This document shows, one piece after another, positions 50,893 to 53,126 of a stretch of DNA of 64,000 nt. How positions within the stretch are numbered: position 1 is the first letter of the stretch; each line of letters starts with the position of its first letter. The position numbers and the translations under genes are program-made. This DNA is from an uncultured SAR116 cluster alpha proteobacterium. Its GTDB lineage: Bacteria; Pseudomonadota; Alphaproteobacteria; Puniceispirillales; GCA-002684695. Location: contig CACMFN010000009.1 in NCBI GenBank assembly GCA_902612965.1, forward strand, positions 1 through 64,000, in the 5' to 3' direction. The notes beneath the pieces are model-generated. The model worked only from the letters and a program-made list of their open reading frames with translations. It was not told the origin of the DNA and did not search any database.

Positions 50893-51723
50893 ATGATTGT
50901 TACAAGGTTTGCACCTTCTCCTACAGGATTACTGCATATTGGACATGTTTACTCTTTGGTATGTTCTTACGAATTTGCAAAAAAGAATAATGGTATATTC
51001 ATTTTAAGAATTGAAGATATAGATTTTACAAGATGTAAAGATTTATTTATTGAGCAGATAATTGACGATATAAATTGGTTAAAAATTCCATTTAAGAGAA
51101 CTAATAATCAGTCATTAAGAACAAAGCAATACTCAAAGGCTTTAGACTATTTAAAAAATAAAGATCTTGTTTATGCTTGCTGGTTGACTAGAAAAGAGGC
51201 GTCTTCAACTTTGAACGCACCTCATAACCATATTTCTCAAAATTCAAGTTTAAGGGTAAATGATCATGAACTTAAAAATAGAAAAAGCTTAGGTCTTACA
51301 CCAGCATGGAGACTAAATATCAAAAATTGCTTAAAATACATTAATTCACAAAAAGAAAAAATCTATTGGGAAGATATTAAACAAGGAAAAAATCTTTTAA
51401 ATTTAGATCAGTTTGGTGATGTTGTAATCGCTAGGAAGGATATTTTAACAAGCTATCATCTATCTGTAACAGTTGACGACAATAGTGATGGTGTAACCCA
51501 CATAATAAGAGGTAATGACTTAGAAAGTTATACTAACATACATCGATTGCTTCAAGTCTTGTTAAATTTAAGAGAGACCAAATGGTTTCATCATAAGTTG
51601 ATAAAAGACAAGAATGGTAAAAGAATTGCAAAAAGATCAAATTCTAAACTTACTATTAAAGAATTAAGAGAAAATGGCTATTCTGCAAAAGAGGTGATAA
51701 AACGTGCAAAATCAAATACATAA
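50893..51723 (+). CDS. gluQ: Glutamyl-queuosine tRNA(Asp) synthetase (GluQRS)
   Basis: A truncated GluRS-like enzyme that attaches glutamate to queuosine in tRNA-Asp. The 276-residue protein has FAPSPTGLLHIGHVYSL with the HIGH signature, RIEDIDFTRC, and the KMSKS-like KRIAKRSNSK. The tRNA-binding C-terminal domain of full GluRS is absent, as in the family. The zinc motif is weak: the usual CxC appears as YACWLTRKE with a single cysteine. It is divergent from the esterase gene with a 35-base gap. The sRNA gene lies just downstream. Confidence 0.92.
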   Translation: MIVTRFAPSPTGLLHIGHVYSLVCSYEFAKKNNGIFILRIEDIDFTRCKDLFIEQIIDDINWLKIPFKRTNNQSLRTKQYSKALDYLKNKDLVYACWLTRKEASSTLNAPHNHISQNSSLRVNDHELKNRKSLGLTPAWRLNIKNCLKYINSQKEKIYWEDIKQGKNLLNLDQFGDVVIARKDILTSYHLSVTVDDNSDGVTHIIRGNDLESYTNIHRLLQVLLNLRETKWFHHKLIKDKNGKRIAKRSNSKLTIKELRENGYSAKEVIKRAKSNT

Positions 51724-51759
51724 AATAATTAAAAAAGTTATTGACAAAAAAAATTAGTA

Positions 51760-51788
51760 TTGACAGAATCGGGCAATATGCTATTAAT
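51760..51788 (+). promoter_or_regulatory. Promoter of the small RNA at 51795
   Basis: A consensus TTGACA at 51760-51765 is followed after 17 bases by ATTAAT (51783-51788), with the overlapping TATTAA at a 16-base spacing as an alternative. A second TTGACA at 51741-51746 pairs with CAGAAT at 51764 and could give an earlier start. Two perfect -35 hexamers within 25 bases in this intergenic region are unlikely to be accidental. Confidence 0.6.
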
Positions 51789-51794
51789 GCATTG

Positions 51795-51856
51795 CAAAAT
51801 AATTTTTTTATATTTCCTCCCTGAACTCAGCTGCAATTAATTTGCAGCTTTTTTTT
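51795..51856 (+). ncRNA. alpha-r8 (MmgR)-like small RNA
   Basis: The 215-base gap between gluQ and the MFS gene holds a compact RNA gene. The decamer TTTCCTCCCT is at 51813-51822, just ahead of the terminator hairpin; I recall this decamer as the conserved single-stranded motif of the alpha-r8/MmgR RNA family in alphaproteobacteria. It is complementary to Shine-Dalgarno sequences, suggesting pairing with mRNA translation starts. In Sinorhizobium the MmgR RNA limits polyhydroxybutyrate accumulation; nothing here shows that role in this organism. The 5' end is not fixed: about 62 bases from the second promoter, about 81 from the first. No plus-strand ORF crosses it. Confidence 0.72.
51829..51856 (+). 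terminator. Rho-independent terminator of the small RNA
   Basis: AGCTGCAA at 51829-51836 pairs perfectly with TTGCAGCT at 51842-51849 around the loop TTAAT, and eight Ts end at 51856. It is the only textbook intrinsic terminator I find in the window. It could also stop readthrough from gluQ. Confidence 0.9.
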
Positions 51857-51938
51857 AAACTTATATAGTTATAGCATTTCTTTTTTTGTCAAAATATTGT
51901 TATATTGAGAAATTCTGCAATTTTTGTGCACTGCAAAA

Positions 51939-53126
51939 TTAGCTTGTTTTAAGCATATTTGCCATTAAAATAACAGCCATTATAGGCAATGAATAAAGAA
52001 CCATTTTATCCCATCCTAATGTATAGTGAGCCAAACCCGCGCTTAAAGAAGAAAAAGCTACTGTTCCAAATATTATTAAATCAGAAATTCCCTGAACTTT
52101 GCCCTGCTCTTCAGGTTTTGTTGCATTAACAATTAAAGTTGACCCACCAATGTATAAAAAATTCCAACCAATCCCAAGTAAGAACAGAGATAAAAGATAT
52201 TGATTAGGAGTCTCAGCTAAAAATGCAATAATGGCAACAAATATATACGATAAGAGACCAATAATTAATATTCTCTCTGCAGAAAATTTTTGTATTAATG
52301 TACCAGTGAAAAATGATGGTGCAAACATAGCAATTACATGCCATTGAATAATATTAGCATTGTCTGCAATACTAAATTTACAAACATTAATAATCTGCAA
52401 AGGTGTTGCTGTCATTAAATAACTCATTATGCCGTAACCACCAGCGGCAGAAATAACCCCTTTAATCATTGATTTTTCATAAAAAATTTCAAAAACTTTC
52501 CTGCCACCTATTTTACTTATTGGAGGCAATGGGATTTTTATCCTCATTATGAAAGGCAACGCAATTAATTGTGTTATAGCAATCATTAAGTAACTCCCTG
52601 CATAAAGATGTGGAAGAATAGCATCAGCTGAGATTTGGTATATTCTCGGGCCTAAAAGAGCTGCTATTAATCCAGCAGATAATACAAGAGACATTGCTTT
52701 TGGTTTGACGGTTTTTGGTACTGTCTCGGTGGCTGCGTATCTATAAAATAAATTTGTTGCATGCCCTAATCCAAGCAAGACAGAACCAAAACAAAATAAA
52801 TAAAAATTCTTTTGAAATAAAGCTATAGTCATTATAAGCCCACCAGTTGAAACTGATAAGACACCCCAAACAAAAACAATTTTTCTGCCATATTTCGACA
52901 TTAAAATTGAACAAGGAAACGTAAAGAGCATGGTTATAATAAATTGTAAACTCAGTGGAAATGTTGATAACCATCCATATGGCGCTATGATAAATCCTGC
53001 TAAACCTGTTGTTATGATATTAATGTTCATAGAAGTCATTGAAAATATTTGTGCCAGAGAAAGAAAAAAAACATTTCTATTCAAGTGTTCAAAAAAATTT
53101 TTTGTTTGGCTAAGAAAATTCATCAT
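51939..53126 (-). CDS. Major facilitator superfamily transporter
   Basis: A 395-residue protein with about 12 membrane segments and MFS organisation. The loop between helices 2 and 3 reads SKYGRKIVFVWG (a form of the G-x-x-D/S-x-x-GRR motif A), and the middle of the protein has a basic loop RKVFEIFYEKS. The C-terminal GIGWNFLYIGGSTLIVNATKPEEQGKVQG resembles a subgroup of uncharacterised MFS permeases. The substrate cannot be predicted. It is divergent from zwf, with a 146-base AT-rich region between them. The minus-strand stop lies 82 bases from the sRNA terminator. Confidence 0.88.
   Translation of the reverse strand: MMNFLSQTKNFFEHLNRNVFFLSLAQIFSMTSMNINIITTGLAGFIIAPYGWLSTFPLSLQFIITMLFTFPCSILMSKYGRKIVFVWGVLSVSTGGLIMTIALFQKNFYLFCFGSVLLGLGHATNLFYRYAATETVPKTVKPKAMSLVLSAGLIAALLGPRIYQISADAILPHLYAGSYLMIAITQLIALPFIMRIKIPLPPISKIGGRKVFEIFYEKSMIKGVISAAGGYGIMSYLMTATPLQIINVCKFSIADNANIIQWHVIAMFAPSFFTGTLIQKFSAERILIIGLLSYIFVAIIAFLAETPNQYLLSLFLLGIGWNFLYIGGSTLIVNATKPEEQGKVQGISDLIIFGTVAFSSLSAGLAHYTLGWDKMVLYSLPIMAVILMANMLKTS

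Follow-up and report, generated by a model that had tools for sequence, protein, structure and literature searches.

The alphaR8 small RNAs share a Rho-independent terminator and an internal single-stranded stretch, 5'-UUUCCUCCCU-3', that follows a weak hairpin (PMC12559287). In Caulobacter, SisA was shown experimentally to repress mRNAs directly via this same 10-mer, upstream of the start codon (PMC12559287), and MmgR is described as an Hfq-dependent RNA that has an anti-Shine-Dalgarno (anti-SD) motif but for which no direct target is known (PMC7143759). Our literature search for small RNAs or Hfq in SAR116 found nothing relevant. A first-pass annotation of the 64,000-nucleotide stretch of SAR116 DNA analyzed here (hereafter, the window) had called an alpha-r8/MmgR-like gene between gluQ and an MFS gene, partly on the ground that its decamer is the conserved unpaired motif of the family; the published description confirms this motif.

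We read the locus directly and recovered all the elements that had been listed, i.e., tandem TTGACA boxes, a −10 candidate, the decamer at 51813-51822, an 8-bp stem, and a T8 tail. The neighbors were likewise as named, gluQ by NCBIfam NF004315 (GluQRS; 251.4 bits against a cut-off of 250) and the MFS gene by PF07690. From 5' to 3', the gluQ-to-MFS interval carries two TTGACA boxes, TATTAA, TTTCCTCCCTGAACTC, a perfect 8-bp stem, and T8. The features are as follows, where f1 denotes the genus, and f2 and f3 are related families of the order:

50893-51723, + strand: gluQ (GluQRS), upstream neighbor of the small RNA, kept across f1-f3.
51741-51746, + strand: upstream TTGACA box, read directly, kept in the genus (G001, G002, G003, and G004) 12-13 nt before the second box; perhaps paired with CAGAAT at 51764-51769 as the −35 of an upstream promoter.
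51760-51765, + strand: −35 box TTGACA of the predicted small RNA promoter, read directly; TTGAC lies at a matching distance before the f2/f3 orthologues.
51782-51787, + strand: −10 candidate TATTAA (spacer 16), aligning with CATATA in f3 orthologues (e.g., L060).
51783-51788, + strand: alternative −10 candidate ATTAAT (spacer 17).
51794-51856, + strand: predicted small RNA of about 63 nt, matched by RF00519 at 51794-51863 (26 bits) and by our model R1 at 51789-51857 (71 bits, the window sequence itself being among those that built R1); its predicted 5' end rests on the promoter together with the alignments to Rfam and R1.
51796-51812, + strand: A/U-rich leader lacking a stable hairpin, in the place where relatives have a 5' hairpin.
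51813-51822, + strand: UUUCCUCCCU core (DNA TTTCCTCCCT), predicted to be unpaired, a putative anti-SD seed identical to the alphaR8 core (PMC12559287).
51823-51828, + strand: GAACUC spacer, RRACUY across the order.
51829-51856, + strand: Rho-independent terminator with an 8-bp stem, 5-nt loop, and U8, found by direct reading, folding, terminator scan, and covariation in 6/8 pairs.
51939-53126, − strand: MFS transporter gene, convergent downstream neighbor; the same family lies downstream in 17 of the loci read.

The arms of the terminator, AGCTGCAA at 51829-51836 and TTGCAGCT at 51842-51849, form eight perfect pairs around the 5-nt loop, with the T run at 51849-51856. A motif GCAnTGCAAAA was also seen twice in the window, at 51789-51800, by the predicted 5' end of the small RNA, and at 51928-51940, close to where the MFS gene ends; this second copy is kept within the genus.

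This anatomy was then set against chance. The decamer is unique in the 64-kb window even when one mismatch is allowed; since about five such one-mismatch matches would be expected by chance, the decamer alone is no proof. A terminator scan of 401 bases returned exactly this stem, compared with 0.2 expected, and a promoter scan of the same region was not by itself above chance (2 found, 2.3 expected). When 300 windows were simulated with a Markov model that preserved the dinucleotide content, 51 decamers occurred, none followed by such a terminator. The sequence features observed at 51794-51856 are confirmed.

To which family the element belongs was assessed with Rfam. At gathering cut-offs, a scan of the window reported a tRNA alone. 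At relaxed thresholds, RF00519 (mmgR/suhB) was the top Rfam match, at the very place where the first-pass annotation had put its alpha-r8/MmgR gene (E = 0.0034 over the 601 bases searched), but its score fell short of the 41-bit gathering cut-off. Two features of the family are present, a core in a single-stranded stretch of the predicted fold and a Rho-independent terminator just 3' of it; a hairpin 5' of the core is lacking. Linkage to the N-formylglutamate amidohydrolase gene, which is reported for most species and is not required, was not found here, the neighbors being gluQ and the MFS gene.

Comparison with other genomes added to this picture. The block is at this place in 5/5 genomes of the genus, invariant from the last bases of the leader through the first stem arm amid diverged flanks; G001 has a longer terminator stem that is still paired. 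The alignment with the four sister genomes upheld the decamer block as first annotated. Across the order, RF00519 exceeded its cut-off in 30/136 genomes. With a covariance model of 26 sequences, and E values of about 1e-6 or lower, the gene was detected in 5/5 genomes of f1, 10/12 of f2, and 53/61 of f3, and many of these genomes have several copies. Sequences used in building the model, the five of f1 among them, match it by construction, and the independent evidence for presence in f1 comes from DNA and pattern searches. None of the 26 aligned sequences from the three families departs from the core, and they also have the RRACUY spacer and the core-to-terminator spacing in common. In 6/8 terminator pairs both sides have changed with pairing kept, a count that leans toward structure because the sequences were picked by a structure-aware search. 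As for synteny, gluQ lay upstream in 25 of the 28 f2/f3 loci read (two others were at contig ends), and the same MFS family lay downstream in 12 of the 28.

The 5' segment is where the genus departs from its relatives. The 28 f2/f3 orthologues carry a hairpin of 5-9 bp there (−3.2 to −15.4 kcal/mol). In the five genus members, 0-3 pairs form (0 to −0.4 kcal/mol), and these predicted folds indicate that the hairpin is lost in the genus. The low Rfam score is likely due to the missing hairpin together with the A/T-rich stem. Descent shared with accepted alpha-r8 members is evident in the gluQ-linked f2/f3 locus, where many RNAs exceed the cut-off. Because the hairpin and cut-off tests fail while synteny shows descent, we file the gene as a divergent variant: the comparisons support, with that qualification, an alpha-r8 gene by descent that is not a typical member. 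In this form the original family call stands.

The element follows gluQ in the same orientation at a distance of about 105 bases, the small RNA is a prediction from sequence, and the result of the promoter scan was at chance level, all of which would fit a stem and T-run that serve as the gluQ terminator alone, with an incidental pyrimidine stretch and no separate small RNA. We consider this unlikely: a plain terminator has no need of an invariant UUUCCUCCCUGAACUC, kept across three families, nor of the TTGAC box found before the RNA in relatives, and further copies of the RNA occur elsewhere in many relatives' genomes. It is possible that the terminator of a stand-alone small RNA gene doubles as that of gluQ.

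Additional copies were seen in several places. A second alpha-r8-like RNA lies elsewhere in the window's genome, G000 (C12:20762-20841, − strand; L217), and at the orthologous place in G004 (C5:22456-22517, − strand; L215), the DNA of the two being about 73% identical over 6 kb; its seed is altered, UUUUCUCCUUUAAACU, and its terminator is CCCCAU..AUGGGG; the idea that the secondary RF00519 match on G000:C12 was a bare terminator was rejected, as the match is this seed-altered sibling. G001 has two more core-plus-terminator copies, at C10:35393-35455 (− strand; L214) and C21:23630-23708 (+ strand; L216), one of them between sugar-kinase-like and oxidoreductase-like genes. Identical GC-rich alpha-r8 genes were found on several IMG/VR contigs (L429:10395-10477 and L445:5833-5915, also L425, L427, and L444); two of these, scanned with Rfam, scored 52.8 bits, over the RF00519 cut-off. 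Either phages carry these genes or the contigs are proviral and include host DNA. A search of a phage record collection gave no match.

We then considered what such a seed might pair with. In the window, none of the 59 mechanically called genes has GGAGG within 30 bases of its start, and AGGA, GGAG, or GAGG precedes the start in 4/59; SD sequences being this rare, an anti-SD RNA should have few partners. The one perfect 10-base site found so far precedes an O-acetylhomoserine sulfhydrylase gene (metY; TIGR01326), as TATAGGGAGGAAAAT-ATG, with a pairing energy of −19.6 kcal/mol; the 59 window genes average −7.2 and go no lower than −15.3. On purine-rich sites of this type, good scores were also obtained with a reversed control RNA (−12.6 and −16.6). 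The site is present in G000 and, nearly the same, in G002, and absent from G001; metY as a conserved target thus fails outside G000 and G002, G004 having GGGAGGG at a paralogue. A genome-wide GGGAGG..ATG target signature was weak, with 35 occurrences against 28 for reversed-pattern controls in G000. Sites of the form GGGAGGAA were also found at two gene starts in congeners, in G004 at a taurine/sulfonate-binding-protein-like gene and in G002 at a gene for a TAXI-type binding protein, both assignments being below curated cut-offs. Together with the sulfhydrylase gene, these two are target candidates only.

The scarcity of perfect mRNA sites, with a clear gene start at just 1 of 21 GGGAGG..ATG stretches read in G000, would also be expected if the RNA acted mainly on another RNA, as a sponge partner or decoy in the manner of CrfA and SisA-D in Caulobacter, where CrfA sponges the alphaR8 family via the same core (PMC12559287). 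This too seems improbable, given that no CrfA-like RNA was found in the window, where Rfam at gathering cut-offs yields only a tRNA, and that SisA itself represses mRNAs directly (PMC12559287). That decamer and terminator arose independently and converged on an anti-SD motif, as the sub-cut-off score and missing hairpin might suggest, is hardly credible for a gene in the same place after gluQ, often with the same MFS gene next, as in f3 genomes whose RNA exceeds the Rfam cut-off, and with RRACUY and the spacing to the terminator shared.

The distribution of Hfq was compared with that of the RNA. Hfq is encoded in the window's genome and was found in 4/5 genomes of f1, 12/12 of f2, and 50/61 of f3, as against 0/58 in a fourth family, f4, in an order where many genomes are incomplete. 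The same 58 genomes gave neither a gluQ-linked alpha-r8 gene nor an RF00519 match at E 0.01, and TTTCCTCCCTRRACTY was absent from them; a gluQ query in 16 of them returned gltX-sized frames alone, none gluQ-sized. This co-absence would suit Hfq dependence but could reflect one joint loss. As an absolute rule it is weakened by f4 look-alikes: G007 (L335, about 1501-1570) and G022 (L324), with no detected Hfq, have a conserved intergenic TTTCCTCCCC and then a terminator, the look-alike common to both being GTTTCCTCCCC before the terminator, and this is possibly a diverged alpha-r8. Another look-alike was seen in G053 (L336). The remaining f4 matches that were read, a set that leaves aside the two shorter minus-strand loci L340 and L350, proved to be terminators or coding-like stretches in which the core is lacking.

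Taken together, these results suggest that the window RNA is probably an Hfq-assisted anti-SD repressor of alpha-r8 descent, with its own promoter and few targets. A stand-alone gene would be transcribed from a sigma-70 type promoter into a trans-acting RNA of about 63 nt, which, with the 5' hairpin lost in the genus, would be linear: leader, seed, spacer, terminator. Its unpaired core would pair with purine-rich ribosome-binding sites (AGGGAGGAAA) and block translation there, with Hfq likely bound to the terminator U-tail. The target set would be small, as the genome rarely uses SD sequences, and metabolic, e.g., the O-acetylhomoserine sulfhydrylase mRNA. More speculative, and in our view rather doubtful, is a wider proposal in which the hairpin-less RNA and its altered-seed sibling (UUUUCUCCUUU) selectively control a few mRNAs with strong ribosome-binding sites in a lineage nearly without SD initiation, the whole system having gone with Hfq and gluQ in the related family.

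These findings add SAR116, a marine clade that is abundant and for the most part uncultivated, to the range of a characterized, Hfq-linked regulator, and suggest that the 5' hairpin is its dispensable part and the 10-mer plus terminator the indispensable one. Within SAR116, families that have both Hfq and the RNA can be set against those that have neither, a natural comparison for the dependence of alpha-r8 on Hfq, and an anti-SD RNA in a genome with few SD sequences is an informative setting for target choice.

Compared with known systems, the window RNA resembles suhB/MmgR of Sinorhizobium meliloti (RF00519) in its core, short spacer, Rho-independent terminator, U-tail, and length (77 nt for MmgR, PMC7143759; about 63 nt predicted here), but scores 26 bits against a cut-off of 41, has no 5' hairpin, and adjoins gluQ, whereas in most species the reported neighbor is the N-formylglutamate amidohydrolase gene (PMC12559287). 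With SisA-D of Caulobacter crescentus (alphaR8) it shares the 10-mer, there shown to pair upstream of a start codon, and the occurrence of several siblings per genome, here a main copy and a seed-altered one; unlike in Caulobacter, where SisA has a weak 5' hairpin, no CrfA sponge was identified and the targets are candidates alone. The gluQ-linked alpha-r8 genes of f2 and f3 differ in keeping the 5-9-bp 5' hairpin and, in many cases, exceeding the Rfam cut-off, but otherwise match it: they follow gluQ, often precede the same MFS gene, and have the same seed, spacer, and terminator design.
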